64,000 bases of DNA from NCBI GenBank assembly GCA_001725415.1, contig MEGH01000005.1, positions 561 to 64,560 on the forward strand, written 5' to 3'. The translations under genes were made by a program, and so were the position numbers. Position 1 is the stretch's first letter. Each line of letters begins with the position of its first letter. Positions 16,143 through 42,480 of this stretch are shown piece after piece. This DNA is from Pseudonocardia sp. SCN 73-27 (GTDB lineage Bacteria > Actinomycetota > Actinomycetes > Mycobacteriales > Pseudonocardiaceae). The notes below the pieces were generated by a model. That model made no database searches, was not told the origin of the DNA, and saw only the letters and a program-made list of their open reading frames with translations.

Positions 16143-16166
16143 CTAGTCGTCAGAAGCATCACGCCG
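16143..16166 (+). promoter_or_regulatory. Operator site A of the proposed TrmB regulon
   Basis: CTAGTCGTCAGAAGCATCAC followed by GCCG lies 14 bp before the ThuA-like gene. It matches site E at 29859 in TCGTYAGAAGYATCACGCCG. A possible promoter TGTCAC-N17-TAGGGT lies just upstream (16111-16139). Confidence 0.6.
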
Positions 16167-16179
16167 CTGGAGGTGGGTC

Positions 16180-16881
16180 GTGCGCGCCGTCGTTCTGTCC
16201 GGAGGGCTCACCCACGACTTCCCCGCCACCACGGCAGCCCTGACCGAGCTGCTCGAGAAGGCAGGGCTGGAGGTCGAGGTGCACACCGGGACCGAGGGCG
16301 TCGACTCCGCGCTGACGGCACTGCCCGGGGCGGCCCTGTTCGTCGTCAACGCGTTGCGCTGGTCGATGACCGGCGAGCAGACGCCGGAGCGCTACCGCGA
16401 CAAGGCCGCCGAGGAGGGCGCGAGCCCGTCGCCGAAGGCGCGCGAGGCCCTTGCCACGCACCTCGCGGCGGGCGGCGGCGTAATCGGCATGCACACCGCC
16501 GGCATCTGTTTCGACGACTGGCCCGGCTGGGGCGACACCCTCGGCGGAGCGTGGGTGTGGGGGTCGTCGTCGCACCCGCCGCTCGGCCCGGACGTGTCCG
16601 TCGCGGTCACCGGCGTGCACCCGATCGTCGACGGGCTCGACGACTTCTCGATCGTCGACGAGGTCTACTCCGACCTCGACATGCGCCCCGGCATCGAACC
16701 GCTCCTCGCCGCCCGACGTCCGGGCGAGGACACCGGCCCGGCGCAGCCGCTGCTGTGGGCGCGCGAGCACGGGGGCGGCCGGGTCGTCTACGACGCGCTG
16801 GGCCACCACGTCCCGTCGTACGAGGTGTCCGAGCACCGCGAGATGGTGCGCCGGGCGATCGGGTGGACCATCCGTGGCTGA
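16180..16881 (+). CDS. ThuA-like domain protein
   Basis: 233 residues with the ThuA fold, a class-I glutamine amidotransferase-like domain often found beside carbohydrate or catabolic genes. Segments seen: VLSGGLTHDFPATT at the N-terminus, GGGVIGMHTAGICFDDWPGW with the usual G-x-H turn, and HHVPSYEVSEHREMVRRAIGW at the end. No classical amidotransferase Cys is evident, and the enzymatic role of the family is not settled. GTG 16180 follows GGAGGTGG closely. It is followed after 6 bp by the MFS transporter, so the two form an operon behind operator site A. It probably acts on a transported compound; this is inferred from neighbours. Confidence 0.75.
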   Translation: MRAVVLSGGLTHDFPATTAALTELLEKAGLEVEVHTGTEGVDSALTALPGAALFVVNALRWSMTGEQTPERYRDKAAEEGASPSPKAREALATHLAAGGGVIGMHTAGICFDDWPGWGDTLGGAWVWGSSSHPPLGPDVSVAVTGVHPIVDGLDDFSIVDEVYSDLDMRPGIEPLLAARRPGEDTGPAQPLLWAREHGGGRVVYDALGHHVPSYEVSEHREMVRRAIGWTIRG

Positions 16882-16887
16882 CCGGTC

Positions 16888-18126
16888 GTGAGCGGCGAGC
16901 GGGGGTCCCGTCGCAGCGGGGTCGTCCTGACCGTCGCGACGATCGCGATCGGGCTCGGCAGCATCCCCGGCTTCCTGTTCGGCTACCTCGGCGCGGTGTT
17001 CGAGGACGATCTCGGCATCTCGGAGCCTGCGCTCGGCGTGCTGATCGGGGTGTTCTTCGGGGCGACGGGCCTGGCGTCGACGGTCGGTGGGGCGTGGGCG
17101 GAGCGGCTCGGCGCCCACAAGGCCGTCGGGCTGGACATGCTGGTGGTCGCAGCCGGCCTGCTGCTCGCGGTCCTGGTGCCGACATTCCCGTCGTTGCTGG
17201 TCATGGCCGCTGTCACCGGCGCCGGGTACGCGCTGTCGAACGCCGGCACCAACATGGCGGTCGCGGCGAGCATCGCACCGGCGCGGCACGGGATCGCGAT
17301 GGCCGTCCGCACCGCGGGCGTCCCGGCGGTCGGCGCGATCCAGTCGCTGGTCGGGGTCGCCGCGGCGGCGACGTTCGGGTGGCGGCCCGTCCTCGCGGTC
17401 GTCGTGCCGGTGATCGTCGTCGTCGCCGTGCTGTGTTTCTGGCTGCTGCCCGCCGCGCGCAGCTCCGGTGACCCTGCGGCGGCGGTCGTCGAGGCCCACG
17501 ACCTGGTCGGCGACGGTCCCGGGACACCGCGGCGGGCGCGGCTGCCCGCCGGGTTCGCCTGGTATCCGATCGCGGCGTTCCTGCTGATCGCGGGGACGCA
17601 GCCGATCTACTCGTGGTCGGTGCTCTATCTCGACGAGGTCGGCGGCCTGTCGGTGCCGCTGGCCGGCGCCCTGGCGTCGATCGGGTCGGCGGTCGCCGTC
17701 GTCGCGATGATCGTGCTCGCGGGCCGCTTCGACCGGACGGGCGGCGACCGGGTCCGGCCGGTCGTGCTGCTGACCGCGACGGCGACGATCGGGGTCGCGT
17801 TGCTGTGGCTCGGCATCCTCGCCGGGCCCGTGTCGATGACGGCCGGGCTCGTCCTGGGCGGGCTGGCCCAGCTGACCGCGATCGGCATGATGCACGCGGC
17901 GGTCGTCGCCACGGCGCCGCACCTGGTCGGGCGCGCCTCGGGCGCCACGATGGCCGGCTACTACCTGGGCGCGCTGCTCAGTGCGCCGCTGTTCGGGCTG
18001 TCGGTCGACGCGACCGGCGGCTACGGGCTGGGCTGGGGCGTGAGCGTCGCGCTGGTCGCGGCGAGCGTGCTGTGCTTCGTGCGGTGCCGCAGCGTGACGG
18101 CGCAGGCCACGGCTGCGCGCGCGTGA
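16888..18126 (+). CDS. MFS transporter
   Basis: 412 residues with about 12 predicted membrane helices and a central cytoplasmic loop (about 190-215, DPAAAVVEAHDLVGDG). The loop between helices 2 and 3 contains GGAWAERLGAHKAVGLDM, the position of the MFS GxxxDRxGRR motif in degenerate form. The likely job is uptake or export of the compound processed by the surrounding regulon. It follows the ThuA gene by 6 bp on the same transcript. GTG 16888 is the start; the ribosome site is weak, which fits coupling to the upstream gene. Confidence 0.85.
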   Translation: MSGERGSRRSGVVLTVATIAIGLGSIPGFLFGYLGAVFEDDLGISEPALGVLIGVFFGATGLASTVGGAWAERLGAHKAVGLDMLVVAAGLLLAVLVPTFPSLLVMAAVTGAGYALSNAGTNMAVAASIAPARHGIAMAVRTAGVPAVGAIQSLVGVAAAATFGWRPVLAVVVPVIVVVAVLCFWLLPAARSSGDPAAAVVEAHDLVGDGPGTPRRARLPAGFAWYPIAAFLLIAGTQPIYSWSVLYLDEVGGLSVPLAGALASIGSAVAVVAMIVLAGRFDRTGGDRVRPVVLLTATATIGVALLWLGILAGPVSMTAGLVLGGLAQLTAIGMMHAAVVATAPHLVGRASGATMAGYYLGALLSAPLFGLSVDATGGYGLGWGVSVALVAASVLCFVRCRSVTAQATAARA

Positions 18127-18151
18127 CCTGCCGTCCTCCGCTGCGGTGCCA

Positions 18152-18175
18152 GTAGTCGTCAGAAGCACCACGACG
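18152..18175 (+). promoter_or_regulatory. Operator-like site B, orphan copy
   Basis: TAGTCGTCAGAAGCACCACG followed by ACG matches site A in all but a few positions, but no plus-strand gene follows it. It lies 25 bp after the MFS stop and 113 bp from the end of the TrmB gene (minus). It may mark a deleted gene or regulate an antisense or short transcript. Confidence 0.45.
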
Positions 18176-18287
18176 TCGCCGCGACCCCGACCCGCCGCCC
18201 GACCGTCCCGCCGCACCCTCACGGTCCGCGGCGGGTGCCGGGGCAGCAGTGAGGTCGCGCCGGGTTCGTGACCGCTTCCGGCCGTGG

Positions 18288-19190
18288 CTAGTTCGGCCCG
18301 CGACGCCCGCTGCGCCGCGGTGGCGCCGTCGTCCCCACCGGGCCACGGGCCAGCAACGCGGCCGGGATGCCGTGGTCGGCGCGCAGCCGCCGCAGCGCCG
18401 GGTCGGACGTCCAGAACGACTCGAAGTCCTCCGGCGAGAACTTCTCGGCGATCAGGTGCATCGCGATGTCGTGGCGCACGTACTCGACGGCGACCAGCAC
18501 GACGGCGGGGTCGTCGGTGTAGACGCCCCACGCGTCCCCGTTGACGACACCGCCGATGACGGCCTGCTCCCGGTCGGCTGCGACGACGAGCAGCCGGCAG
18601 CCCAGGTTCTCGAGCGCCACCTCGGGCGTGGAGAAGCGGTGCGGGATCGTGGTGCCGACCGGGTCGGGGTCGTCGCCGAACATGACGACGGAGACGTCGA
18701 CACCCTCGGAGTCGGCCCGGCGCACGACGGGCTTGAGCGGCTCGATCTCGGCCGGCCATCCGGAGAGGAACAGGTCGTCGCGCGCCGCGGCGACGACGTC
18801 CTCCGCGCGGGCGAGCAGCGACTCACGGTCGGACAGGTTGTGCACCAGCCGGACCTGCGGGGGCGACGCCACCTGCGGCAGCGCCTCGCGCAGCGTGTCG
18901 ATGGAGTGGTCGAAGTCGCGGCGCATCCGGTCGAGCAGGGCCGACGGCGGCAGCGAGATGTAGCCGACGCTCGCCTCGCCCGCCCGCACCTCGTAGGCGG
19001 CGCCGCGCCCGACGAGCTTCGCCAGCGTCTCGTACACGGTGCTGCGCGGCACGCCGGAACGCTTCGCGACCTCGTAGCCGTTGAGCGGCGTGCCGGCGGC
19101 GACCAGCGCGACATAGGCCTTGGCCTCGTAACCCGACATCCCGAGGCGCTGCAACTCCTCGATGACGCTCTGCTGGGACATGCGACCCAT
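18288..19190 (-). CDS. TrmB-family transcriptional regulator
   Basis: 300-residue regulator. The N-terminal winged helix has LQRLGMSGYEAKAYVALVAAG and YEVAKRSGVPRSTVYETLAKL, a clear TrmB-type DNA-binding domain. The C-terminal part is the phospholipase-D-like sensor region of TrmB proteins (ARDDLFLSGWPAEIEPL, then RLLVVAADREQAVIGG), where sugars or other effectors bind. The start is ATG 19190 or 19181. It follows the SDR gene by 59 bp on the same strand, so it is probably transcribed from the promoter at site C, which would give autoregulation. It is the only regulator in the 16-33 kb catabolic region and the best candidate to bind sites A-G; that binding is inference. Confidence 0.88.
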   Translation of the reverse strand: MGRMSQQSVIEELQRLGMSGYEAKAYVALVAAGTPLNGYEVAKRSGVPRSTVYETLAKLVGRGAAYEVRAGEASVGYISLPPSALLDRMRRDFDHSIDTLREALPQVASPPQVRLVHNLSDRESLLARAEDVVAAARDDLFLSGWPAEIEPLKPVVRRADSEGVDVSVVMFGDDPDPVGTTIPHRFSTPEVALENLGCRLLVVAADREQAVIGGVVNGDAWGVYTDDPAVVLVAVEYVRHDIAMHLIAEKFSPEDFESFWTSDPALRRLRADHGIPAALLARGPVGTTAPPRRSGRRGPN

Positions 19191-19249
19191 AGTCGCATCC
19201 CGCTGAACAGCGTCGGGACTCCCCCGCCGCTGCTCAGGGCGCGTCGCGC

Positions 19250-20026
19250 CTACTTCACCCCGACCGAGTCGACCGACTTCGGCCGCGGCAGCGACGCGAG
19301 CGCCCCCTTGCTGATGCCGCCGTCGACGGCGATGGTCTGCCCCGAGATGTAGGACGCCTTCTCCGAGCCGAGGAACAGCACGGCGTCGGCGATGTCGTCG
19401 GCCGTGCCGAGGCGGCCCTGCGGCACCCGGCTCTCGCGCAGCCTGCGCACCTCCGGGTCGGCGTTGACGGCGTCGGACATCCCGGCGTTGATGAGGCCGG
19501 GCGCGATGCAGTTGACGCGCACGCCCGCGGGCGACCACTCGATCGCCATGTGTTCGGTGAGCATGACGATGCCGGCCTTGGACGCGGTGTAGGCGCCGGC
19601 GTTGGGGGCCGCGGCGAGCCCGTTGATCGACGCCATGTTGACGATCGCGCCGCCCCCGGCCTCGATCATCCGGGCGGCGACGGCCCGGCCGACGAGGAAC
19701 GTCCCGGTGAGGTTGACCTCGACGGCCGCTCGCCACTCGGCGGCGGCCAGCGTCAGCAGGGGGCCGAAGCGGGCGATGCCGGCGTTGTTGACGAGCAGCG
19801 CGGGCGCCACGGGCAGCTCGGCGACGGCGGCGGCGATCGAGGCCTCGTCGGTGACGTCGACGACCGACGCGACGCACGCGCCGCCCAGGTCGGCGGCGAG
19901 TGCCTCCACCCCGGCGCGGTCCACGTCCCACGCGGCGACGCGGTAGCCCTCCTTGACGGCGTTGCGCGCGATGACGGCACCGATGCCGTTACCCGCGCCG
20001 GTGACCACGGCCCACTCGTTCTTCAC
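19250..20026 (-). CDS. Short-chain dehydrogenase/reductase (SDR)
   Basis: Classical SDR of 258 residues: TGAGNGIG cofactor motif at the N-terminus, D in AAWDVDRAG suggesting NAD preference, NNAG, catalytic Ser in MASING and YTASK with Tyr and Lys, then PGLINAGMSDAV. The C-terminal DGGISKGALASL is typical. It oxidises a secondary alcohol or reduces a ketone; the substrate is unknown. GTG 20026 follows GGAGGT by 6 nt. The promoter TGGACG-N17-TAGCGT with operator site C lies about 50 bp upstream. The TrmB regulator follows on the same strand, so regulator and enzyme probably share a transcript. Confidence 0.9.
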   Translation of the reverse strand: MKNEWAVVTGAGNGIGAVIARNAVKEGYRVAAWDVDRAGVEALAADLGGACVASVVDVTDEASIAAAVAELPVAPALLVNNAGIARFGPLLTLAAAEWRAAVEVNLTGTFLVGRAVAARMIEAGGGAIVNMASINGLAAAPNAGAYTASKAGIVMLTEHMAIEWSPAGVRVNCIAPGLINAGMSDAVNADPEVRRLRESRVPQGRLGTADDIADAVLFLGSEKASYISGQTIAVDGGISKGALASLPRPKSVDSVGVK

Positions 20027-20077
20027 GGCCCGACCTCCGTCGTCGATCGCACTCCGTCGCCCCACCTGACCGGGGTG

Positions 20078-20125
20078 CGGCGTTGGCTTTCTGACGACGC
20101 TAGTGGCGTGGGCGGTCGCCGTCCA
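20078..20125 (-). promoter_or_regulatory. Promoter with operator site C (SDR-TrmB operon)
   Basis: On the minus strand, TGGACG (20125-20120), 17 bp, TAGCGT (20102-20097), then TCGTCAGAAAGCCAACGCCG. The same -35, spacer length and -10 occur at site E (29837-29865), followed by the same kind of operator. The operator would cover the transcription start, which suits repression. Confidence 0.65.
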
Positions 20126-20246: not shown

Positions 20247-20270
20247 CTAGTCGTCAGGCTTCTTACGGCG
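20247..20270 (+). promoter_or_regulatory. Operator site D upstream of amidohydrolase
   Basis: CTAGTCGTCAGGCTTCTTAC followed by GGCG: the left half is identical to site A, the right half diverges. It lies 49 bp before the amidohydrolase start, and site C faces the other way 145 bp to the left, so both arms of this divergent region carry a copy. Confidence 0.5.
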
Positions 20271-20318: not shown

Positions 20319-21680
20319 GTGAGCGGCAGCATCCTCATCAGCGGTGGCACGGTCATCGACGGCACGGGCTCCCCCGCCCGCCCCGGCGAGTCGGTCCTGC
20401 TCCGCGACGGGCGCATCACCGCGCTCGGGCAGCAGGCGGTCGACGACGCCGAGACCCACGGCGTCGACGAGCGCATCGACGCGACCGGGCGCACCGTCAT
20501 GCCCGGCCTCATCGACGCGCACACCCACCTCACGTTCGGCGAGCCCACGGGCAACGACGAGCTGTTCAACCATCGCACCGAGGCCTACAGCTCGATGCTC
20601 TCGGCCTACAACGCGCGCAAGGTGCTGCGCGCGGGCGTCACGAGCGTGCTCGACGCCGACTGCCTGTGGAACATCGGCTGCGAGCTGCGCGACGCGATCG
20701 AGGCCGGGATCGTCGAGGGCCCGCGGATGCGCGCCGGCGGCCAGGCCCTGATGACGATGCTCGGCGGCACCGCAGGCCGCATGATCAAGGACGAGGGCCG
20801 CACCGGGTACGCCACCGTCGTCACCGGGCGGGACGTGATGGTCAACGAGATCCGCCGCCAGATCAAGTACGGCGTCGACTGGATCAAGATCATGGTGACG
20901 GGACTGATCCCGTCGATGAAGGGCCCCGAGGTCAAGGTCTGGAACATCGACGAGCTGCGCACCGTCTGCGACACCGCGCACGATCTCAACACCAAGGTCG
21001 TCGCGCACTGCCGCAACTCCGACTCCACCCGCGACGCGGCCCGCGCCGGCGTCGACCTGATCTACCACGCCTCCTACCTCGACGACGAGGCCATCGAGGC
21101 CGTCATCGAGGCCGGCTCGGCGATGTGCCCGACGTTCACGCTGCTGGGCAACCTGGCCGACTACGGCGAGAAGGTCGGCACCGCGCCCGAGCTGCTCGAC
21201 GTCTTCCGCGCCGAGATCGAGGTGACCGCCAAGCAGCTCACCAAGGCCCACGCGGCCGGCGTCAAGTTCCTCACCGGGTCGGAGACGGGCTTCGCCGTCA
21301 CGCCCGTCGGCGAGTGGCACGCCCGTGAGCTGGAGATGTTCGTCGACTACATGGGCATGTCGCCGATGGAGGCCATCGTCGCCGCGACGCGCAACGGCGC
21401 GTTCGCGATGCGCATGGAGGACGACCTCGGCACGCTCGAGCACGGCAAGGTCGCCGACGTCCTGGTCGTCGACGGCGACCCGCTCGCCGACGTTCGCATC
21501 CTGCAGCAGAAGGACAAGATCGTCGAGGTCGTCAAGGCGGGCAAGCGGATCGACCTCACCACCCCGATCCCGGAGCACAAACAGCGGACGTCGGACCAGG
21601 TGCGTTTCCTGGCCGCCTGCCCACTGACCCGGTCCCTGGCGTTCACCGAGGAGCAGCTGGAGCGGATGTCGCATGTCTGA
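20319..21680 (+). CDS. Amidohydrolase-family metal-dependent hydrolase
   Basis: 453 residues, imidazolonepropionase/dihydroorotase-like amidohydrolase with flanking beta-sandwich. It begins ILISGGTVIDGTGSP; the metal motif DAHTH places His at 68 and 70; WIKIMV holds the likely carboxylated lysine; AHCRN and YHASY give two more His ligands. The last ligand, usually Asp, appears in TGSETG, where Glu or Ser stands in its place, so the site may be mononuclear or altered. It would cleave an amide, lactam or cyclic bond. GTG 20319 follows GGGAGG by about 4 nt. It overlaps the next amidohydrolase by 8 bp. Confidence 0.85.
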   Translation: MSGSILISGGTVIDGTGSPARPGESVLLRDGRITALGQQAVDDAETHGVDERIDATGRTVMPGLIDAHTHLTFGEPTGNDELFNHRTEAYSSMLSAYNARKVLRAGVTSVLDADCLWNIGCELRDAIEAGIVEGPRMRAGGQALMTMLGGTAGRMIKDEGRTGYATVVTGRDVMVNEIRRQIKYGVDWIKIMVTGLIPSMKGPEVKVWNIDELRTVCDTAHDLNTKVVAHCRNSDSTRDAARAGVDLIYHASYLDDEAIEAVIEAGSAMCPTFTLLGNLADYGEKVGTAPELLDVFRAEIEVTAKQLTKAHAAGVKFLTGSETGFAVTPVGEWHARELEMFVDYMGMSPMEAIVAATRNGAFAMRMEDDLGTLEHGKVADVLVVDGDPLADVRILQQKDKIVEVVKAGKRIDLTTPIPEHKQRTSDQVRFLAACPLTRSLAFTEEQLERMSHV

Positions 21681-22662
21681 GGCACGAGTGATCGACGTCC
21701 ACGCGCACGCGGTCCTGGAGTTGACCGAAGGCGCTGCGGGCGCAGCCGGCCCCGAGCTCGGCGCCACCGACGACGGCGTGCCGTTCTACCGCGTCGGCGA
21801 CTACCGGCTGATGGGCGTCAGGTACGCCGGGAGCCCGTTCATGGACGTCGACGTCCGGCTCGCCGCGATGGACGCCGCCGGGATCGACCTGCAGGTGTTG
21901 TCCCCCAACCCGATCACGTACTTCAACGACCTCCCCGCCGACGCCGCCACCGACTTCGCGCGCAAGCACAACGACGGGCTCGCCGAGCTCGTCGGCAAGC
22001 ACAAGGGACGCCTGCTCGCGACGGCCCAGCTGCCGGTGCAGGACATCGCCGCCTCGGTGGCCGAGGCCCGCCGTGCCGTGCGCGACCTGGGGATGCCCGG
22101 CGTGTACATCGACACCGACCCGGCCGGGCGCACCCTCGACGACCCCGAGCTCGACCCGCTCTACGAGGCGCTCGTCGACCTGAACGTCCCGCTGTTCGTG
22201 CACCCGTCCCCGCTGGGCAAGAACGGCCCGGCCGACGACCCGCGCCTGCGCCGCTTCGATCTCGACCTGACGTTCGGCTTCGCCTACGAGGAGACGTTGG
22301 CCGTCGCGGCGATCGTCTTCGGCGGGGTGCTCGAGCGCCACCCGGGTCTCGACGTCTGCATCTCCCACGGCGGCGGCGCCGCGGCCTTCGTGTCGGGCCG
22401 GTTCGCCCGTGCCGTCGAGAAGCGTCCGTGGGCGTCGAAGCCCCTGCGCGACAACGGCTTCGACCACTACTACAAGCGCATCTGGTTCGACACCCACGTG
22501 CACGACGAGGATTCTCTGGAGCTTCTCGTCAAGCACGCGGGAACCGAGCGCCTGGTGTTCGGCACCAACTTCGCGGGCTGGGACTCCGGCGCGGGCGAGC
22601 ACCCCGCCGGCGACCTCGGCCCCACCCTGACGGCGAACGCCGCGCGCCTTCTCCGCCTCTGA
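21673..22662 (+). CDS. Amidohydrolase 2 (ACMSD-like) family protein
   Basis: 329-residue TIM-barrel protein of the group that includes aminocarboxymuconate-semialdehyde decarboxylase and ring-cleavage product hydratases. Metal ligands: H10 and H12 (DVHAHA), HPSP and SHGGG in the middle. The C-terminal position normally holding Asp reads FGTNF, so Asn replaces it; this may mean a changed reaction or a weaker metal site. It is translated through an 8-bp overlap with the preceding amidohydrolase (ATGTCTGA), so the two probably act in sequence on one substrate. A 40-bp palindrome ends the operon. Confidence 0.83.
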   Translation: MSEARVIDVHAHAVLELTEGAAGAAGPELGATDDGVPFYRVGDYRLMGVRYAGSPFMDVDVRLAAMDAAGIDLQVLSPNPITYFNDLPADAATDFARKHNDGLAELVGKHKGRLLATAQLPVQDIAASVAEARRAVRDLGMPGVYIDTDPAGRTLDDPELDPLYEALVDLNVPLFVHPSPLGKNGPADDPRLRRFDLDLTFGFAYEETLAVAAIVFGGVLERHPGLDVCISHGGGAAAFVSGRFARAVEKRPWASKPLRDNGFDHYYKRIWFDTHVHDEDSLELLVKHAGTERLVFGTNFAGWDSGAGEHPAGDLGPTLTANAARLLRL

Positions 22663-22667: not shown

Positions 22668-22709
22668 CGTGAGTGGCGTTATTGGCCATAGCCAATAACG
22701 CCACTCACG
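22668..22709. terminator. 40-bp palindrome, copy 1 (operon end)
   Basis: Arms GTGAGTGGCGTTATTGGC and GCCAATAACGCCACTCAC around CATA, plus one further pair outside. It starts 6 bp after the amidohydrolase stop. It is a probable rho-independent terminator without a T tract, as is common in actinomycetes, and a member of the family described in the findings. Confidence 0.75.
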
Positions 22710-23015: not shown

Positions 23016-23771
23016 TCAGAGCAGCGCCTGGTAGGCCCCGCCGTCGACCGGCACCGAGGCGCCGGTGAGGAATCCCGCCTGCTGGGAGCAGAGGAAGGCG
23101 ACGACGGCGCCGAAGTCGGCCGGGCTGCCGAGGCGGCCGGCAGGGACGTCGGCGAGCGCGCCGTCGAGCGCGGGGCCCTCGGTGCCGTAGACGCCGGTGA
23201 TGCGGTCGGTCTCGTGCAGGCCGGGCTGGACGGAGTTGACGGTGACGCCGTCCGACGCGATCTCCCGGGCCAGGGTGCGCAGGAAGCCGGTCGCGCCGGA
23301 ACGCGCCGTGTTCGACAGCGCCAGGTTCATGTACGGCTGCCGCACACCCAGCGAGGTGATGGCCACGACCCGCCCCCAGCCGCGTTCGCGCATGCCGGGC
23401 GTCGCGGCCAGGCACATCGCGACGACCGCCAGCAGGCTCCGGTCGAGCGCGGCCTGGTAGGCGGCGAGCGGCACCTCGGTGACGATCCCCGGGCCCGGGC
23501 CGGGGCCGTTGACGACGAGGATGTCGACGCCACCCATCCGCTCGGTCGCGCCGTCGACGAACGCCGTCGCGCCCTCGGGTCCGCGCAGGTCGGCGACCAG
23601 CCACTCGGTGCCACCGCCCAGCTTCTCGGCGGCGGCGCGCGCCCGGTCGGCGTCGGAACTGCAGATGGTCACCTTCGCGCCCTCGGCGACGAGCGCCTCC
23701 GCGCTGGCGTAGCCCAGCCCCGTGCTGGCCGCGGCCACGGCCGCCCGTTTCCCCGCGATCCCGAAGTCCAT
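23016..23771 (-). CDS. SDR-family oxidoreductase with a non-canonical active site
   Basis: 251 residues with the SDR fold: AASTGLGYASAEAL at the cofactor turn, VADLRG, and the C-terminal CSQQAGFLTGASVPVDGG. The usual Tyr-x-x-x-Lys is absent. After ITSLGVRQPYMNLALS the helix reads NTARSG, so Tyr and Lys are replaced by Asn/Ser and Arg. The normal NNAG reads VNGPGPG. Several FabG-like paralogues with this SN..R pattern exist; their chemistry is uncertain. ATG 23771 follows GGAGG. The gene is flanked by hairpins on its 5' side and looks like a single-gene transcript. Confidence 0.8.
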   Translation of the reverse strand: MDFGIAGKRAAVAAASTGLGYASAEALVAEGAKVTICSSDADRARAAAEKLGGGTEWLVADLRGPEGATAFVDGATERMGGVDILVVNGPGPGPGIVTEVPLAAYQAALDRSLLAVVAMCLAATPGMRERGWGRVVAITSLGVRQPYMNLALSNTARSGATGFLRTLAREIASDGVTVNSVQPGLHETDRITGVYGTEGPALDGALADVPAGRLGSPADFGAVVAFLCSQQAGFLTGASVPVDGGAYQALL

Positions 23772-23803
23772 GCCCTCATCCTCCCGGGCCGCCCCGCCCC
23801 TGT

Positions 23804-23853
23804 GCAGGAACGACACTCTTCCCGGCCCAGCTGCAGGAAAGTGCCGTTCCTGC
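23804..23853. repeat. Long-loop inverted repeat upstream of SDR
   Basis: GCAGGAACGACACT (23804-23817) and AGTGCCGTTCCTGC (23840-23853) pair in 13 of 14 positions around a 22-nt loop. It lies between the SDR start and copy 2 of the palindrome, so it could be a second terminator for the ferredoxin operon or an SDR operator. Confidence 0.5.
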
Positions 23854-23870
23854 GCCAAGCGCCGCACCCT

Positions 23871-23912
23871 CGTGAGTGGCGTTATTGGCTATGACCAATA
23901 ACGCCACTCACG
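23871..23912. terminator. Palindrome, copy 2 (end of P450-ferredoxin operon)
   Basis: CGTGAGTGGCGTTATTGG and CCAATAACGCCACTCACG around CTATGA. The arms are nearly identical to copy 1, 1.2 kb away. It lies 2 bp beyond the ferredoxin stop on the minus strand. Confidence 0.75.
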
Positions 23913-23914
23913 GG

Positions 23915-24139
23915 TCAGCCCACGTCGATCTCCTCGCCCGACTCCACGTCGGTGACGATCAGCGCGCCGGAGGGGCAGGCGCGAGCGAGGTCGAGGATGC
24001 GTTCGTCGTTCGGCTGCGGGGCGCCGGGGATCATCTCGGCGATCTCGTCGTCGTCGAACCGGAACAGGTCGGGGGCGTCGGCGACGCACTTTCCCGAACT
24101 GATGCAGACCTCGGGGTCGATATCGATCTTGTACGTCAT
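23915..24139 (-). CDS. [3Fe-4S]-type ferredoxin, P450 partner
   Basis: 74-residue acidic ferredoxin. Cys residues in EVCISSGKCV and ACPSGAL give the C-x5-C ... C-P pattern of the P450-associated actinobacterial ferredoxins that carry a 3Fe-4S cluster. It passes electrons to the upstream P450. ATG 24139 overlaps the P450 stop by 4 bp (ATGA), with GGAGGAGG ahead of it. No ferredoxin reductase is encoded in the cluster, so a housekeeping reductase must be used. Confidence 0.9.
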   Translation of the reverse strand: MTYKIDIDPEVCISSGKCVADAPDLFRFDDDEIAEMIPGAPQPNDERILDLARACPSGALIVTDVESGEEIDVG

Positions 24140-25365
24140 GATCCTCCTCCCAGCAGGACGGGGTAGCTGCCCCAGTAGGGGCGGACGGTGGCGGCGTCGC
24201 GCTGCGGCGGGTTGTCGGGGTCGCGGCGCACGCCGACCCCGAACATGTGCCGCACGGCCCCGGTGACCAGGCCGTAGAGGTGGTCGTCGGGGTCGGTGCC
24301 GGCCCCGGCGACGACGCCCGCGGCGAGGTCCTGCCCGATGCAGACGTGCATGCCGCCGCCGAAGCTCAGCCCGAAGGGGGCGACGCCCTGCGGCATCGCG
24401 CGGGTGGGGTCGAACTCGGCGGCGTCGGGGCCGAGGAAGTCGGGGTCGCGGTTGATGGCCTGGAGGTCGATGACGACGGTCGCGCCCTCGGGGATGTGCA
24501 ACCCGGAGCGGAGGGTGACGTCGGCAAGTGCGATGCGCCGGCCCGTCGGGCTGGACGGGTTGAGCCGCACGGTCTCGTGGATGCACCGCTGGACGAACAG
24601 GGCGTCGTCGCGGACCCGGGCGATGTCGGCCGGGTGCTGGTCGAGCCAGCCGAGGATGTGGTCGATCGAGCGGACGAACGCCGTCGCGGACGTGTGGGCC
24701 CCGGCGAGCAGGAAGAACGCGACCTCGCGACGGATGACGTGGCGCGGCAGGTCGAGCTCGTCGCGGTGGCGCAGCAGGGTGGCGAGGACGTCCCGGGGGA
24801 CGTCGACGTCCTCCCCGGCGGCCTCGCGGGCGAGCAGGTCCTCCCGCAGCGCCCACGACGGCGCGAGGAACTCGGCGTCCCAGGCTTCGAGCGCCTCGGC
24901 GATCTCGCGGGACAGTGCCGCCTTGTCGCCGGTGTGGTGCGCCATGGTGGCGCCCTCGATGAACTTGGCGTTGTAGTCGTAGAGACGCTCGGTCTCCTCG
25001 GTGGTGCCGAGGGGGCGGTCGATGCCCGCGGTGAGCGCGGACAGGTTGAGCATCAGCTCGTGCCCGAGGTGCACGAGGTCGACGCGGCCGCTCTCGAGGT
25101 ACGGGACGAGGGTCTGCTCGGTCACCGCCGGGAAGAGGTCGCGTTCGTAGCGCTCGAAGACGTCGCGACGGAACATCCGGTTCTCGACGCGGCGGCGGTC
25201 GCGGTGCTCGCGGCCGTGCAGGTTGACGAGGACGCCGTCCATGACGACCTCGCCCTCGTCGTAGAGCGCCTGGCGCAGGTCCTTGCTGCGGTAGGCGTCC
25301 TTGGCGTCGGCGAAGGTGTCGAGGACGATCGTCGGGCCGGCCGCCTCCTCGGTCACTGCCGTCAT
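24136..25365 (-). CDS. Cytochrome P450 (first paralogue)
   Basis: 409-residue soluble bacterial P450. The heme loop FGGGMHVCIG gives Cys342; E264-T-V-R267 is the ExxR motif. The I helix reads AGAHTS (221-226): His224 takes the place of the acidic residue normally found in AGxET/AGxDT, with Thr225 kept. The closest relative here is the P450 at 29908, which has AGSHST. The two share LDxFAD, HRKRRRVENRLFRR-like and FFLLAG segments, so they are duplicates. It overlaps both the ferredoxin and the Gfo/Idh gene by 4 bp. Function: hydroxylation or epoxidation of the cluster substrate, inferred. Confidence 0.93.
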   Translation of the reverse strand: MTAVTEEAAGPTIVLDTFADAKDAYRSKDLRQALYDEGEVVMDGVLVNLHGREHRDRRRVENRMFRRDVFERYERDLFPAVTEQTLVPYLESGRVDLVHLGHELMLNLSALTAGIDRPLGTTEETERLYDYNAKFIEGATMAHHTGDKAALSREIAEALEAWDAEFLAPSWALREDLLAREAAGEDVDVPRDVLATLLRHRDELDLPRHVIRREVAFFLLAGAHTSATAFVRSIDHILGWLDQHPADIARVRDDALFVQRCIHETVRLNPSSPTGRRIALADVTLRSGLHIPEGATVVIDLQAINRDPDFLGPDAAEFDPTRAMPQGVAPFGLSFGGGMHVCIGQDLAAGVVAGAGTDPDDHLYGLVTGAVRHMFGVGVRRDPDNPPQRDAATVRPYWGSYPVLLGGGS

Positions 25366-26429
25366 GGCTCCTCCGATGTGGTGGTGGTGGGTGCGTCGTC
25401 GTCGAGGCCGTCGACGGCCGCTGCCACGCGCAGGGCGGCGACGCCGTCGTCGAACGTCGGGATGTCGTCGGTGTCACCCATGGCCAGGGCGCGGACGAGC
25501 AGGGCGAAGGGTTCGGTCGGGCCGCCCTCGGCGGGCAGGAGCGGACGCAGGCCGTCGTCGCCGCGTCGCGCGCCGCTCAGCCCGACGGGGAAGTGCCCGG
25601 TGTGGCCGGCGGCCTCGGCGACGAGGACGCCTTCGGAGCCGTGGACGACGAGCCGCCAGCCGGCCCCGAAGGGCGCGACCCACGAGGTGTGGACGGACAC
25701 GACGGCGCCGTCGGCGGTCCGGGCGGTGTAGGCGGCGCTGTCGACGCTGGTCGCGGGGATGGGGCCTTCCCCGCCGGGCCAGGACGGCTGGCGGGTGGCC
25801 GCGGTGCCGGTGACGTCGGTGAGCTCGCCGAACGTCCAGCGCAGGATGTCGGTGGTGTGCAGGCCGTGGACGCGCAGCGAGCTGGCCCCGTCGGCGGCGT
25901 CGGCGCACCAGCCCGACGACGCGACTGCCGCGGGCATCGTGAACGTCGGGTAGAAGGCTTGTGCGGCAACGTTGTCGACGCGTCCGACGTAGCCGTCGAG
26001 GACGAGCCGGCGGAGCTCGGCGATACCGGGCCGGAACCGTGACTGCATGTCGACGACCCCGCACACGCCGGCGTCGGCGGCGGCGCGGGCCATGGCGAGG
26101 CCGTCGTCGACGGTCGGGGCGAGCGGTGCCTCGCAGAGCACGTGCTTGCCGGCGGCGATCGCGGCGAGCGCCATGTCCTTGTGCCGGCTGGGCCGGGTGG
26201 CGACGTCGACGAGGTCGACGTCGGGGTCCTCGCAGAGGGCCTCGTAGCCGACGTGGGCGTGCGGGACGGCGAACTTGGCGGCGACGGCGTCGGCGGTCTC
26301 GAGGTGCGCGGTCGCGACGGCGACCAGCTCGACGATGCCGGCCTCGGCCAGCGCGGCGTAGACGGGCAGGTGCGTGCCGGAGGCGTAGCTGGCGCCGACG
26401 ACCCCGACCCGAAGCGGACGAGCGATCAT
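25362..26429 (-). CDS. Gfo/Idh/MocA-family oxidoreductase
   Basis: 355 residues: N-terminal Rossmann fold (RVGVVGASYASGTHL; the usual GxGxxG is changed to GASYAS), then VDVATRPSRHKDMALAAIAAGKHVLCEAPLA, where EAP replaces the common EKP with its Lys. The C-terminal domain is normal in length. The missing Lys suggests altered chemistry or a non-sugar substrate. It overlaps its neighbours by 4 bp on both sides (ATGA), so it is tightly coupled to an LLM enzyme upstream and P450 downstream. Its role in the pathway is unknown. Confidence 0.85.
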   Translation of the reverse strand: MIARPLRVGVVGASYASGTHLPVYAALAEAGIVELVAVATAHLETADAVAAKFAVPHAHVGYEALCEDPDVDLVDVATRPSRHKDMALAAIAAGKHVLCEAPLAPTVDDGLAMARAAADAGVCGVVDMQSRFRPGIAELRRLVLDGYVGRVDNVAAQAFYPTFTMPAAVASSGWCADAADGASSLRVHGLHTTDILRWTFGELTDVTGTAATRQPSWPGGEGPIPATSVDSAAYTARTADGAVVSVHTSWVAPFGAGWRLVVHGSEGVLVAEAAGHTGHFPVGLSGARRGDDGLRPLLPAEGGPTEPFALLVRALAMGDTDDIPTFDDGVAALRVAAAVDGLDDDAPTTTTSEEP

Positions 26430-27445: not shown

Positions 27446-27498
27446 GACGCTCCTCGTGGTGGTGGGTGGGCGGGTCGCGACGCTGGGACCCGCCCGGC

Positions 27499-28956: not shown

Positions 28957-28996
28957 GGCGACCGCCTTTCGCAGTTCGTCCACGCGGTGACTGGGG

Positions 28997-29836: not shown

Positions 29837-29884
29837 TGGACGACCCCATTGTCGCTTGCTAGCGTCGTTAGAAGTATCACGCCG
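29837..29884 (+). promoter_or_regulatory. Promoter with operator site E (P450-LEH-LLM operon)
   Basis: TGGACG (29837-29842), 17 bp, TAGCGT (29860-29865), then TCGTTAGAAGTATCACGCCG. The -35, spacer length and -10 are identical to those at site C. The operator overlaps the transcription start. The ATG of the P450 is 23 bp beyond. It may also control the divergent LLM gene. Confidence 0.7.
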
Positions 29885-32500: not shown

Positions 32501-32505
32501 CGACG

Positions 32506-32970
32506 ATGCGCATCGAGGACCGGGTGGCCATCGGCGACCTGATGGCCCTGTACTGCGAGCGGGTCGACGAGTACGACATCGACGCCGTCGCCGCCCTCTT
32601 CACCCCCGACTGCGTCACCGACTACGGACCCGGCCGGGGCGGACTCGTCACCGGGCGCGACGCCGTGCGCGACCGGATCGCCGGCGGGCAGGCCCAGTTC
32701 CGGCGGACCCATCACCAGCTCGGGCAGAGCCGGGTCACCTTCGACCCCGCCGACCCCGACCGCGCCTCCGCCGTCACCTACGTGACCGCCTCCCACGAGG
32801 AGTGGGAGGGTCGCCAGTGGCGGGCGCACCTGCGCTACGTCGACATCCTCGCCCACACCCGAGAGGGCTGGCAGTTCGCCGAGCGTCGTGTCCACGCCGG
32901 GGTGATCGAGAACCGCCCCGAGATCGACTGGGTCTGGGTCCCCCGCCAGGAGCCGAGGGTTCGCGCCTGA
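32506..32970 (+). CDS. SnoaL-like (NTF2-fold) protein
   Basis: 154 residues from ATG 32506, with AAGGAGG about 10 nt before it. A GTG at 32497 overlaps the previous stop but sits only one base from the ribosome site. The fold is seen from RVAIGDLMALYCERVDEYDIDAVAALFTPDC and the later WRAHLRYVDILAHTREGWQFAERRV. SnoaL-like proteins include cyclases, dehydratases and isomerases of ring compounds. It is the last gene of the P450-LEH-LLM operon. His in RTHHQLG may be catalytic. The role is unknown. Confidence 0.78.
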   Translation: MRIEDRVAIGDLMALYCERVDEYDIDAVAALFTPDCVTDYGPGRGGLVTGRDAVRDRIAGGQAQFRRTHHQLGQSRVTFDPADPDRASAVTYVTASHEEWEGRQWRAHLRYVDILAHTREGWQFAERRVHAGVIENRPEIDWVWVPRQEPRVRA

Positions 32971-35090: not shown

Positions 35091-36227
35091 ATGCCCGCTC
35101 CCTCGGCCGAACGGACCCGCGCCCGCATCCAGGCGCTCGCCACCGCCGGCCTCGATCTGCCGACGTTCGCCACCGCCGCCGTCGAGGTGCTGCGCACGGC
35201 GATGCCGTTCAGCGCGGCGTGCATCGGCACGGTCGACCCTGCGACGGAGATCGTCACCGCGACGGTGAAGTGGGGCGGCCTGACCAACGACGAGGACGAC
35301 CAGTGGGCCTTCCACGAGTACGAGGCCCCTGACCTCTACGACTTCCGTGACATCATGCGCCGCCCCGGCGGCGTGGCCTCCACCCACCACGAGACCGACG
35401 GCGACCCGCACCGCTCGCGGCGGTTCAACGAGTTCTTCAACCCCACGTACGGTTTCGACGACGAGCTGCGCGCGGGCTGCCGCGCCGACGGCGTGACCTG
35501 GGGATTGTTCGCGCTGTTCCGCGAGGGCCCCAACTCGGCGTTCACGGTGGCCGAGCACGAGTTCGTCAGCAGCGTGGCGTCGGCGTTCGCCGTCGGCTAT
35601 CGGACGGCGCTGCTCACCAACGCCGCCGATCCGACGATCCTGGTTGGTGTCGACGGGCCGGGCGTGGTCGTCGTCGACGCCGCGGGCGAGGTGGTGCAGG
35701 CCAATCTCGCGGCCGCCGGGCACATCGACGACCTCGGCGGCGGCGCGATCGGCGACGATCGGCTGCCGTTCGCGGTCCGCGCCCTCGTCGGCGCCGCCCG
35801 CCGGTTCGCGCTCGGCGAGACCGCGCTGACCCCCCGGTCGCGGCTACGCACCCGATCAGGCCGCTGGGTGGTCGTGCACGCTTCGCCGCTGGTGTCGCGC
35901 AACGGGTCCGGGACCGACGTCGTCGTGACGATCGAGGAGGCCCGGCCGCCGGAGATCGTGCCGCTCGTGGTCGCCGCGTTCGGGCTGACCGCGCGGGAGC
36001 AGGACGTCGTCGCGTTGGTGCTGCGGGGCGTCGACACCGCCGAGATCGCCAGGACCCTGCACCTCTCGGCCTACACGGTGCAGGACCACCTCAAGTCGAT
36101 CTTCGACAAGGTCGGGGTGCGCAGCCGTCGCGAGCTGACGGCGCGGGTGTTCCTCGACCAGTACGCCCCCCGGCTGGCCTCGCGGGCCCCGCTGACGCCG
36201 TCGGGCTGGTTCGCCGAGAGCCCGTGA
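35091..36227 (+). CDS. LuxR-family regulator with GAF-like sensor
   Basis: 378 residues. The N-terminal region (about 20-160: LPTFATAAVEVLRTAMPFSAACIG, then FALFREGPNSAFTVAEHEFV) resembles a GAF domain. A PAS-like middle (about 185-290: VDGPGVVVVDAAGEVVQAN) follows. The C-terminal LuxR helix-turn-helix is GLTAREQDVVALVLRGVDTAEIA and YTVQDHLKSIFDKVGVRSRREL. It is a one-component sensor-regulator, probably for the divergent RidA-oxidase operon, with the dyad at 35040 as its site; no phosphorylation domain is present. Confidence 0.88.
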   Translation: MPAPSAERTRARIQALATAGLDLPTFATAAVEVLRTAMPFSAACIGTVDPATEIVTATVKWGGLTNDEDDQWAFHEYEAPDLYDFRDIMRRPGGVASTHHETDGDPHRSRRFNEFFNPTYGFDDELRAGCRADGVTWGLFALFREGPNSAFTVAEHEFVSSVASAFAVGYRTALLTNAADPTILVGVDGPGVVVVDAAGEVVQANLAAAGHIDDLGGGAIGDDRLPFAVRALVGAARRFALGETALTPRSRLRTRSGRWVVVHASPLVSRNGSGTDVVVTIEEARPPEIVPLVVAAFGLTAREQDVVALVLRGVDTAEIARTLHLSAYTVQDHLKSIFDKVGVRSRRELTARVFLDQYAPRLASRAPLTPSGWFAESP

Positions 36228-36896: not shown

Positions 36897-38330
36897 TCAG
36901 GAGCTGAGCGCCGTCCGCGCCGCGATCCGGCCGAAGCAGAAGGCCTCGGAGAGGTTGGCGCCGTCGGCGGGGTAGAGCATGCCGACGGGCTGGCCCAGCT
37001 CCCCCGCGGCGTACAGCCCGCGGATCGGGACGTCGTACGGGTCGAGGACGCGCCCGCCGGCGTCGCGGACCGGGCCGCCGCAGGTGTTGGAGCCGCCCGG
37101 GTAGAGCGGCACGCAGTAGTAGGGCGGGGAGTCGAGCGGGACGAGGGTGTCGGCGGCGCGGCCCAGCTCGTCGACACCCGCGGCGCAGGCCGCGTTGTAG
37201 GCGGCGACGGTGCGCGCCAACGCTTCCGGGTCCTCCATCCCCGCGGCCGCGGCGGCCTCCTGCACCGTCGATCCGCGGGCGATCCAGCCGCGGTCGATCT
37301 CGGCGGAGTTGTCGGGGCTCCAGTCGTAGAGCCCGACCTTCACCGCGCCGATGTGCGACAACGTGAGCGGACCGGCGGTGCGGCGGCGTTCGTCGAACAC
37401 CCACCAGCTGGGGATGCGGCTGTACTCGGCGCGGTCGTAGTCGTAGCGCAGCATCTCGTAGTAGAAGCCGTGCAGCAGTTGGGCCTGCATCGTCTCGTTC
37501 GCGTACCGCTCACCGCTGCGGTCGACGATGACGTGCCCCGGCGGGTCGATGTTGATGATGAAGTTGAGCCAGCCGCCCTCGGCCGTGTCGAGCGGGAAGT
37601 GTCCGATTGCGCGGCCGATCATCGTGTTCATGTGCCACAGCCCGGCGCCGGCGGCCTGGGCCATGCGGACGCCGTCGCCGGTGTTGCCGGGGTTGCCGTA
37701 GAAGTGCACGGGGTAGGCGCGGAGGTTGTCGCGCTTGAGGTTCTCGTCGAACTCGTAGCCGCCGCAGGTGAGGACGACCCCGCGCCGGGCCCGGATCTCG
37801 CCGGCGGCCGTCGCCACCCCGACGACTTGCCCGTCCTCGACGATCAGCCGCTGCGCCGGCGTCGACCACCGGATCTCGATCCCCCGCTCCTGGACGGCGG
37901 CGGCGACGGCGGCGAACAGCGCGTCACCCGCACCGGCCGACGGGTCGAGCCGGAACGCGGCTTCGCCCGGCTGGAACACGCCGACCCCGGAGGCGCCGGG
38001 GAGGTCGGGATGCTCCGCGATGTTGATGCGCGAGAACGTCAAGCCGGCGGTCTTGCCCAGCCAGTCGAGGACGTCGGTTGCCGACTCGGCCCAGGCGGCG
38101 GTGACGTCGGAGGGGACCATGCCGCCGGCGCAGGCGTCGAGGTAGGCGGCGCCGTCGGCCGCGGAGTCGGCGGCCATGACGAGCCCGCCGGACATCCGGG
38201 TGCTCGGAGTGTGCGCGCCCTCGGCCTGTTTCTCGAGCACGACGACCGTCGCACCGGCGTCGTGCGCGGTGATCGCCGCCGCCGCACCCGCTCCGCCGAA
38301 CCCGACTACGACCAGATCGACCTCGTCCAC
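36897..38330 (-). CDS. FAD-dependent fumarate reductase/KstD-like flavoprotein (second paralogue)
   Basis: 477 residues. I start at GTG 38330, which has GGAGG 5 nt upstream; a GTG at 38345 would add five residues. The FAD motif is VVVGFGGAGAAAAITAHDAG, followed by VVVLEKQAEG and a second FAD contact GLYAAGELGQPVGMLYPADG. It belongs to FAD_binding_2, as does the protein at 27499; the two differ through most of the middle. It lies behind operator site F. The likely reaction is dehydrogenation or reduction of a C=C bond next to a carbonyl. Confidence 0.87.
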   Translation of the reverse strand: MDEVDLVVVGFGGAGAAAAITAHDAGATVVVLEKQAEGAHTPSTRMSGGLVMAADSAADGAAYLDACAGGMVPSDVTAAWAESATDVLDWLGKTAGLTFSRINIAEHPDLPGASGVGVFQPGEAAFRLDPSAGAGDALFAAVAAAVQERGIEIRWSTPAQRLIVEDGQVVGVATAAGEIRARRGVVLTCGGYEFDENLKRDNLRAYPVHFYGNPGNTGDGVRMAQAAGAGLWHMNTMIGRAIGHFPLDTAEGGWLNFIINIDPPGHVIVDRSGERYANETMQAQLLHGFYYEMLRYDYDRAEYSRIPSWWVFDERRRTAGPLTLSHIGAVKVGLYDWSPDNSAEIDRGWIARGSTVQEAAAAAGMEDPEALARTVAAYNAACAAGVDELGRAADTLVPLDSPPYYCVPLYPGGSNTCGGPVRDAGGRVLDPYDVPIRGLYAAGELGQPVGMLYPADGANLSEAFCFGRIAARTALSS

Positions 38331-38347
38331 GCGCACCTCCGCCACAC

Positions 38348-38373
38348 CGTCGTGAGAGTCCTACCGACGCTAG
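38348..38373 (-). promoter_or_regulatory. Operator site F upstream of FAD dehydrogenase
   Basis: On the minus strand CCTAGCGTCGGTAGGACTCT then CACGACG. It shares CTAGCGTCG and CTCACG with site E at the matching positions. TAGCGT is the same -10 as at sites C and E, but no TGGACG lies 17 bp upstream because palindrome copy 3 begins there. Confidence 0.5.
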
Positions 38374-38376: not shown

Positions 38377-38416
38377 GTGAGTGGCAATCATGGCTATAGC
38401 CATGATTGCCACTCAC
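38377..38416. terminator. 40-bp perfect palindrome, copy 3
   Basis: GTGAGTGGCAATCATGGC, TATA, GCCATGATTGCCACTCAC: all 40 bases are self-complementary. It contains the stop codon (38413-38415) of the oxidoreductase on the minus strand, so the terminator starts inside the gene. It separates that gene from the FAD dehydrogenase promoter. Confidence 0.75.
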
Positions 38417-41805: not shown

Positions 41806-41860
41806 AGTGCCTCCAGGCAGGTCGCGATGGCGCGACGCTAGGAACGGACCGGGCACCCGT

Positions 41861-41884
41861 CCAGTGCCAATACGGGTTCACTGG
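41861..41884. promoter_or_regulatory. Inverted repeat in the Lrp/oxidoreductase divergent region
   Basis: CCAGTG, 12 bp, CACTGG. It lies between the oxidoreductase start (56 bp) and the Lrp start (53 bp). The size and location suit binding of the Lrp/AsnC protein, which usually autoregulates and controls its neighbour. Confidence 0.45.
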
Positions 41885-41937
41885 GCCATCGGTACAGTCG
41901 CGCCCGGCGAGAACCGCACCGAGGAGGCCAACGGACC

Positions 41938-42420
41938 ATGACTCTCGACGAGCTGGATCGGTCGTTGCTGCAGCTGCTGCTGGAGCACCCGCGGGCCGGG
42001 CTGCGCGAGCACGCCCGCACCCTCGGCGTGGCCCGCGGGACCGTCGCCGCACGGTTCCTGCGGCTGCAGGAGGCCGGGGTCATCTCGGGGCTGGCGCCGT
42101 CGGTGGAGCCGCGGGCGTTCGGCTACTCGATGCTCGCCTTCGTCCATCTCGATCTCACCCAGGGCTACCTCGACTCCGTCGTCGAGGACCTCACCGCGAT
42201 CCCCGAGGTCATCGAGGCCTACACGGTCACCGGCGACGGCGACCTGCTGTGCCATGTCGTTGCCCGGGACACCTCCGAGCTGGAGCACGTCATCCAGCGG
42301 CTGATCGCGGTGCCGGGGGTCGTGCGGACCCGCTCGCAGATGGCCCTGACGCAGCGCATCCCGCACCGCACGCTTCCGCTCGTGCGGGCCGGACGCTGGG
42401 CGCCGACCCGCAGCCGCTGA
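41938..42420 (+). CDS. Lrp/AsnC-family regulator
   Basis: 160 residues: N-terminal helix-turn-helix (LDELDRSLLQLLLEHPRAGLREHARTLG) and C-terminal RAM effector domain (LAFVHLDLTQGYLDSVVEDL, then VTGDGDLLCHVVARDTSELEHVIQRL). It probably senses an amino acid or 2-oxoacid and controls the divergent oxidoreductase gene, for which such acids would be substrates. ATG 41938 has GAGGAG about 9 nt upstream. The next gene is separated by operator site G and its own ribosome site. Confidence 0.9.
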   Translation: MTLDELDRSLLQLLLEHPRAGLREHARTLGVARGTVAARFLRLQEAGVISGLAPSVEPRAFGYSMLAFVHLDLTQGYLDSVVEDLTAIPEVIEAYTVTGDGDLLCHVVARDTSELEHVIQRLIAVPGVVRTRSQMALTQRIPHRTLPLVRAGRWAPTRSR

Positions 42421-42456
42421 CCCCTGCCGCCCGGCCCTTGCGACCCTCACGCGACC

Positions 42457-42480
42457 GGCGTTAGGTTCCTAACGTCGTGA
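42457..42480. promoter_or_regulatory. Operator site G, perfect palindromic form
   Basis: CGTTAGGTTCCTAACG (42459-42474) is a fully symmetric 16-mer. On the minus strand it reads CGTTAGGAACCTAACGCCG, matching site E (CGTTAGAAGTATCACGCCG) in 13 of 19 positions. It precedes the CoxL-like gene by 56 bp. A promoter TTGCGA-N18-TAGGTT (42438-42467) may overlap it. Confidence 0.55.

Follow-up and report, generated by a model that had tools for sequence, protein, structure and literature searches.

Genes and operator copies in the window

The stretch of DNA analyzed here (the window, 64,000 nucleotides of contig MEGH01000005.1 of Pseudonocardia sp. SCN 73-27) carries a cluster of putative degradation genes together with the gene for a TrmB-family regulator, and a 22-bp dyad, CGNCGTYAG-N4-CTRACGNCG, is present among them in eight copies. 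Comparison with relatives suggests that this dyad is one shared operator lying before the degradation genes and before the operon of TrmB itself, and that TrmB probably controls the whole breakdown pathway.

TrmB (18288-19190, minus strand) is a predicted protein of 300 amino acids with a winged helix-turn-helix and a PLD-like domain. Its gene follows that of the short-chain dehydrogenase SDR1 (19250-20026, minus strand), the first of the two-gene SDR1-TrmB unit, across an intergenic gap of 59 bp. The plus strand encodes a ThuA-like protein (16180-16881), an MFS transporter (16888-18126), the amidohydrolases AmH1 (PF01979) and AmH2 (PF04909, ACMSD-like) (20319-22662), the cytochrome P450 P450b with a luciferase-like protein and a SnoaL-like protein (29908-32970), and the large (CoxL) and small subunits of a molybdenum hydroxylase with two short-chain dehydrogenases (SDRs) (42477-46908), although the large-subunit start, judged by eye, is probably 42531 and not 42477. 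On the minus strand are a run encoding FAD1, a luciferase-like monooxygenase, a Gfo/Idh/MocA protein, P450a, a ferredoxin and SDR2 (23016-28983) as well as FAD2, an FAD_binding_2 dehydrogenase (36897-38345). Other regulators encoded in the window belong to the AsnC (41938-42420) and LuxR (35091-36227) families, along with a response regulator (12224-12934).

Seven of the eight sites are upstream of genes. Operator 1 (16145-16166, plus) lies 13 bp upstream of the GTG that opens the ThuA-like gene of the ThuA-MFS unit and follows a TTAGGGT box (16133-16139), and the same site is found before ThuA homologues of relatives. Operator 3 (20078-20099, minus) lies in the SDR1-TrmB promoter, which would make TrmB autoregulated, and operator 4 (20249-20270, plus) lies upstream of AmH1-AmH2. 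The minus-strand run headed by the FAD dehydrogenase FAD1 (27499-28983, minus) is preceded by operator 5 (29024-29045, minus), P450b by operator 6 (29863-29884, plus), which has the top score of 27.4 bits, and FAD2 by operator 7 (38348-38369, minus). Operator 8 (42456-42477, plus), before CoxL, contains the inner dyad CGTTAGGTTCCTAACG in exact form at 42459-42474. The remaining copy, operator 2 (18154-18175, plus), is an orphan, flanked by the 3' ends of the convergent MFS and TrmB genes; a similarly placed site in Nonomuraea (L156) lies in front of the gene for an ABC-transporter permease. All eight score 20.1-27.4 bits with a palindromic matrix built from the same eight, and the next-best position in the window reaches 15.7 bits. 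The core pattern with up to three mismatches occurs three times against 0.02 expected. The consensus from 56 sites in both orientations (112 rows) is CGTCGTnAGnnnnCTnACGACG, with both half-sites kept.

An earlier sequence-only reading of this DNA had picked out seven related elements, and all are present as 22-mers at the positions given above, as is the perfect dyad it reported near 42459. Its statement that none occurs elsewhere in the window holds outside 16000-42500, where the same matrix finds no position of at least 18 bits, but it had overlooked the copy at 29024-29045. It had also placed TrmB downstream of the copy at 18154; that copy is beyond the 3' end of the TrmB gene and precedes no gene, and TrmB follows SDR1 behind the site at 20078.

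Taken as a set, the P450s and ferredoxin, luciferase-like monooxygenases, molybdenum hydroxylase, FAD dehydrogenases, SDRs, two amidohydrolases and transporters look like a pathway for catabolism of a cyclic compound, and transporters are also found behind sites in relatives. Given the ThuA and Gfo/Idh/MocA proteins, the substrate possibly has a sugar part, so that the description of the regulon as non-sugar is unproven here. Among solved structures, AmH1, AmH2, the luciferase, Gfo/Idh/MocA and P450 proteins have distant relatives only, none of which names a substrate, and a literature search with the locus tags of P. dioxanivorans found no paper bearing on it. Closely spaced amidase and nitrile hydratase alpha-chain genes (51059-52606 and 53208-53918) form a nitrile-degradation pair outside the regulon. 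Four intergenic perfect or near-perfect palindromes (22668-22709, 23871-23912, 38377-38416 and 54334-54375) share the outer arms GTGAGTGGC...GCCACTCAC while their inner arms differ; they may be terminators or members of a small repeat family.

Operator copies elsewhere in the genome and in relatives

The host assembly comprises 6.95 Mb in 99 contigs. With no mismatch, the 22-mer pattern occurs at two places in the window and at one other, C4:179279. With up to one mismatch there are 26 places outside the window, four of which score more than 20 bits with the window-only matrix: C4:179279 (24.7 bits), C19:60301 (22.7), C38:75625 (22.7) and C7:18782 (20.5). Three of the four are at promoters; the match on C7 sits within a coding frame and was rejected as a regulon member. 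At two mismatches the matches number 291 and 274, compared to 134 and 145 in a read-backwards control, and matches of 18-19 bits also fall in coding DNA or beyond genes at several distal loci, so little weight attaches to weak matches. The element is thus not confined to the window, as the sequence-only reading had it, since other contigs carry at least three convincing copies. The scatter over hundreds of unrelated places that the same reading had named as evidence against itself appears only at two mismatches and not at useful stringency.

The copies on C4, C19 and C38 were first found by pattern and then scored with the window-only matrix. A profile from the eight window sites in both orientations (R1) lost true sites, missing C19 and C38 and finding none of two sites found by the matrix in one relative (G006). 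A second profile (R2) returned nine positions in the host genome at E<=10, namely five window sites, C4, C19, C38 and the coding C7 match, with three window sites below threshold; its recovery of C4, C19 and C38 is by construction, because those sites were in its training set.

The site at C4:179279 heads a plus-strand run encoding an ABC transporter (periplasmic binding protein, permease and ATPase), two SDRs and an FAD_binding_2 dehydrogenase. This run ends 9 kb downstream of the site in a TrmB paralogue (C4:188254) that is 57% identical to the window TrmB, and the paralogue with a site at the same distance recurs in three relatives. The C38 site precedes the gene for an OYE-type flavin oxidoreductase, and the C19 site precedes a gene of the carboxymuconolactone-decarboxylase (CMD) family. 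In a search of 15 cluster-bearing genomes, the OYE site was kept at four of four orthologues (at least 19.1 bits) and the CMD site at seven of eight (at least 17.5 bits), the eighth (L244) having a 19.6-bit match about 1 kb away that was left uncounted, compared to none of 13 CMD paralogues (best 14.0 bits). L244, which belongs to G026, is a few kb from another locus of that genome (L125, G026:C1:5382900-5388900), where sites of 21.6, 22.8 and 19.9 bits surround MFS, SDR4-like and aldolase-family genes far from its TrmB genes; judged from these sites, L125 is a probable distal part of the regulon.

Of 62 genomes of the genus, 27 carry TrmB at E<=1e-20 (one copy is only 29% identical). Three or more motif matches, counted on both strands, were found in 12 of the 27 but in none of the 35 others (Fisher p = 8e-6), and any match in 21 of 27 versus 7 of 35. 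Two of the 12 (G030 and G043) qualify via matches away from TrmB, and those examined are in coding frames. The matches looked at as candidate sites in G002, G005, G030 and G043 all fell within long coding frames and were rejected. In G025 and G042, which have no TrmB, the R2 profile also found two positions each. Genome scans scored 131-150 of approximately 700 to 5000 candidates per genome, so three is a minimum for the distal copies of the host genome and further weak members may exist.

Sixty stretches around the TrmB homologues of the genus contained 62 positions of at least 18 bits, compared to a mean of 0.07 with 30 permuted palindromic matrices; ten more regions, of which eight surround TrmB genes from other genera and two are G016 and an additional one from G010, contained 39 sites versus 0.25, and 77 named loci contained 91 versus 0.2. 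These counts are not independent, since the sets partly overlap and include close relatives. The sites reach Nonomuraea, Microbispora, Microtetraspora, Geodermatophilus and Gordonia, as well as metagenome-assembled genomes (MAGs) labelled Acidimicrobiia, Ilumatobacteraceae and Microthrixaceae, with TrmB at 43-55% identity.

The gene order of the cluster varies among these relatives, and the sites travel with the genes through rearrangement. In total, 110 of 142 distinct sites were located near the predicted start of a gene homologous to one in the window, within a range from 40 bp past this start to 200 bp upstream of it, with a median of 31.5 bp. This assignment left out matches below 45% identity and those that start after residue 25; 32 of the 142 sites received no assignment.

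The TrmB protein and its probable link to the sites

The winged helix of the PF01978 family is well matched in the window TrmB (58.7 bits versus a cut-off of 25.6, residues 13-69). Y53 of its recognition helix is invariant in 40 of 40 aligned TrmB sequences and aligns with a tyrosine of TrmBL2; the DNA-contacting recognition-helix tyrosine of archaeal TrmB is given as Y50 in the sections of PMC4158304 available. The PF11495 effector-binding domain is only just matched (23.1 bits versus a cut-off of 22.2), covering profile positions 7-95 of 233 only. The NCBIfam equivalog cut-offs for the sugar-sensing TrmB/TrmBL1 proteins were missed (37.5-47.4 bits versus 500-650), as was that for TrmBL2 (24.6 versus 530). 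The closest named relatives are the proteins of Pseudonocardia sulfidoxydans (99% identity) and P. dioxanivorans CB1190 (97%).

A structure model (pLDDT 87.4) contains a winged helix with a long helix (approximately residues 5-107) and a PLD-like domain (115-246). Its closest solved chains by Foldseek are TrmBL2 and then TrmB, and TrmBL2 is also the best PDB match by sequence. The model is without the second C-terminal subdomain of sugar-sensing TrmB/TrmBL1 (a seven-stranded barrel with the Asn305-Glu326 sugar contacts), which, according to the portion of PMC4158304 describing archaeal TrmB, carries six of seven sugar contacts. The match to the archaeal sugar domain stops at residue 239 of archaeal TrmB, before this subdomain, which suggests that the effector is probably not bound in the way archaeal TrmB binds maltose. 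Some copies in relatives are broken or partial: G033:C71:97874-98056 (L121) is a short piece that has an internal stop and lies near a CoxL homologue, and G006:C80:4737-5591 and G032:C1:1170278-1171168 each have one in-frame TGA.

Cluster-bearing TrmB stretches of the genus contained 56 sites (25 stretches, 0.50 Mb), compared to none around TrmB copies without the cluster (56 stretches, 1.11 Mb, of which approximately 57 kb is counted twice). The latter control has a 20-stretch part and a 36-locus part; the loci of the second part were chosen after the 77-locus result by lack of cluster homologues, and three of them (the 57 kb) overlap the first. It excluded L160, L167, L205, L208, L210 and L222, which have no site at 18 bits and have cluster-type or partial surroundings, and the stretches of G013, G029, G047 and G054, also without a site at 18 bits, are in neither arm. 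In a tree of 40 TrmB proteins, 27 with sites and 13 without, the label changed seven times compared to 11.2 in shuffled labels, with three of 500 shuffles as low. Five distinct sites were assigned by script to TrmB itself, and distant MAGs keep a site just upstream of TrmB. The 60-68% identical TrmB clade of the genus, which has no catabolic cluster, has no operator site near the gene. Four of its loci (L039, L041, L043 and L044) carry the palindrome-like TGAGATGATCTCGCA directly before the TrmB start codon, which is perhaps the own operator of this second clade.

The claim that a shared operator makes this a probable TrmB regulon thus gains from the spread of the sites in relatives, their tracking of rearranged genes, the paralogue operon with its own site, and their absence around TrmB genes without the cluster. 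Where catabolic genes accompany a TrmB homologue, the sites are found again in Pseudonocardia and as far away as Acidimicrobiia-type MAGs, with P. endophytica and G047 as exceptions.

These exceptions belong to several observations that weigh against TrmB control. In P. endophytica (G013/L167), TrmB is 79% identical and accompanied by homologues of P450b, FAD1, the luciferase, SDR1 and ThuA, and nothing above 11.8 bits lies within 10 kb; in G047/L205, with TrmB at 91% plus SDR1 and ThuA, the maximum is 16.4 bits. Two further cluster-type TrmB loci (L210 and L222) have no site at 18 bits, and no site was found in G029 and G054, where TrmB is 81-82% identical and an SDR2 homologue alone stands beside it. 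TrmB proteins of other clades share the recognition helix, yet no such sites lie nearby. Close AmH1 orthologues are found in 15 of 62 genomes of the genus, and all 15 have TrmB; TrmB and the cluster are co-inherited within the genus, so co-occurrence alone cannot tell TrmB from an unlinked regulator. To these are added the copy at 18154, which has no gene behind it, and the promoters of FAD1 and TrmB described below.

Promoter layout, probable mechanism and comparison with known systems

At the CoxL promoter, TTGCGA (-35, 42438-42443) and TAGGTT (-10, 42462-42467) are separated by 18 bp, and the -10 box lies inside the operator. Operators 3 and 6 each overlap a TGGACG-17-TAGCGT pair. A pattern picked after inspection of the window promoters, a -35/-10-like pair around the operator, was present in 10 of 12 CoxL promoters versus a shuffled mean of 0.28, and in 7 of 14 SDR1 promoters versus 0.45; a clear pair was found in only 1 of 13 FAD1 and 0 of 5 TrmB promoters. 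An operator over -10-like boxes, as at CoxL, or next to them, as at ThuA after TTAGGGT, suggests the place of a repressor.

From the positions, conservation and co-travel computed here, we infer the following mechanism. A dimer of TrmB would occupy the 22-bp dyad across the -10 and start region of each promoter and block the catabolic units as well as its own SDR1-TrmB unit, as an autoregulated local repressor. The substrate or an intermediate of the pathway, held by the PLD-like domain, would release TrmB, allowing joint expression of transport, monooxygenases, dehydrogenases and hydrolases. The distal units, namely the ABC transporter operon with the TrmB paralogue, the OYE-type flavin oxidoreductase and the CMD-family protein, would be included.

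That TrmB is the regulator of these sites appears quite likely from the comparisons, and that it represses, if it is the regulator, is held with somewhat less assurance. There is a modest chance that the operator is real but owned by another protein, such as the AsnC, LuxR or response regulator of the window or an unlinked TetR-, GntR- or MarR-type protein. Dyads of such size are common for some of these families, and both the confounding of TrmB with the cluster within the genus and the TrmB clades that have an identical recognition helix without sites fit such an owner. However, in the comparison of genus stretches AsnC was seen only in the clusters of G000, G001 and G037 and LuxR only in those of G000 and G010; beyond those, both are on a G058 contig, and AsnC is also at G010 and, weakly, at L181. 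Nine stretches (G006, G011, G015, G024, G026, G027, G033, G059 and G060) have sites without either, and AsnC and LuxR were rejected as site owners because their homologues are missing from these nine site-bearing clusters as fetched. In the G015 region none of eight unmatched open reading frames hit a regulator family, although four of the eight had no match to any family and may not be in the right frame. An AraC-type gene is present at the edge of the G024 cluster. Also against another owner, the TrmB paralogue on C4 has a site in a largely different operon, and the distant MAGs keep theirs just upstream of TrmB.

Should TrmB bind, it might instead activate, or act both ways depending on position, which we regard as a minority prospect within TrmB control. 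For archaeal TrmBL1/Tgr and a Halobacterium protein, the position of the site decides between activation and repression, as stated in the relevant part of PMC4158304. The layout of the window suggests repression, since the operator covers or overlaps a -10-like box at CoxL, SDR1 and P450b and follows a TAGGGT box at ThuA, and such positions are typical of repressors. The coincidence with -10-like TAGNNT boxes in several promoters could also mean that the element is a part of the core promoter recognized by a sigma factor, but this is very improbable: the 22-bp dyad is symmetric with both half-sites conserved, and its offset from the -10-like box varies, in that it covers the box at CoxL, follows it at ThuA and lies at its edge at SDR1 and P450b. 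An artefact of chance or composition is hardly credible. It could draw on the high GC content of the genome, the two-mismatch matches (themselves above the read-backwards control) and the 18-19-bit matches inside or beyond genes in distal loci, but the permuted-matrix controls are near zero and the sites stand before the same genes across different orders.

The TrmB family has been studied mainly in archaea. The window TrmB shares with TrmB/TrmBL1 of Pyrococcus and Thermococcus, which control sugar regulons, the PF01978 winged helix, the conserved recognition-helix tyrosine and a palindromic promoter site (PMC4158304, in part, for the archaeal proteins; by sequence here). It differs in that its model lacks the sugar subdomain, in its equivalog-level score of 47.4 of 650 bits, and in the operator, CGTYAG-N4-CTRACG here versus TACT-N3-AGTA and TATCAC-N5-GTGATA as quoted from that source; compared by eye, our consensus matches neither of these, nor TACT-N7-8-GAGTA. 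TrmBL2 of Thermococcales likewise combines a winged helix-turn-helix with a domain without sugar subdomain, but the extract of PMC4158304 describes it as a general chromosomal protein on coding and intergenic DNA, whereas the window TrmB appears tied to a few specific promoters.

The sequence-only reading had regarded TrmB control of a non-sugar regulon of this kind as, to its knowledge, undescribed. This needs correcting, as MreA of Methanosarcina (methanogenesis) and OxsR of Haloferax (oxidative stress) are TrmB-family regulators of non-sugar functions in the text available from PMC4158304 and PMC9426492, although these are archaeal, short single-domain proteins with other regulons. A likeness in mode is found outside the family. 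EdcR of Caenibius is a TetR-type steroid repressor. As far as the accessible part of PMC8700777 goes, it is proposed to repress locally and to regulate itself, its dyad covering the -10 boxes of catabolic promoters; the protein family and operator are different, and the likeness is of mode only.

TrmB regulators make up approximately 0.5% of bacterial transcription factors versus 12% in archaea, according to a passage of PMC9426492. Among the open-access papers listed by our searches, we found no described bacterial TrmB regulon or operator; the TrmB named in PMC9195005, in the part available, is merely a mutated gene of Streptomyces albulus. The comparisons support the reading that a bacterial member of the TrmB family works through an operator class of its own. 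That a bacterial TrmB regulon is defined here for the first time is close to an even call in our judgment. On this reading the regulon would have a TrmBL2-like regulator with no sugar subdomain that senses a non-sugar catabolic intermediate via a PLD-like pocket, an operator class that is new and conserved between Acidimicrobiia and Pseudonocardia, and one degradation pathway spread over several loci.

For a bacterial TrmB, operator, members and regulator could then be named together. The operator predicts unlinked members, including the transporter, the OYE-type flavin oxidoreductase and the CMD-family protein, and may thereby help to assemble a widespread actinobacterial degradation pathway. 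It also raises the question of how a TrmB protein without the sugar-binding subdomain senses its signal.

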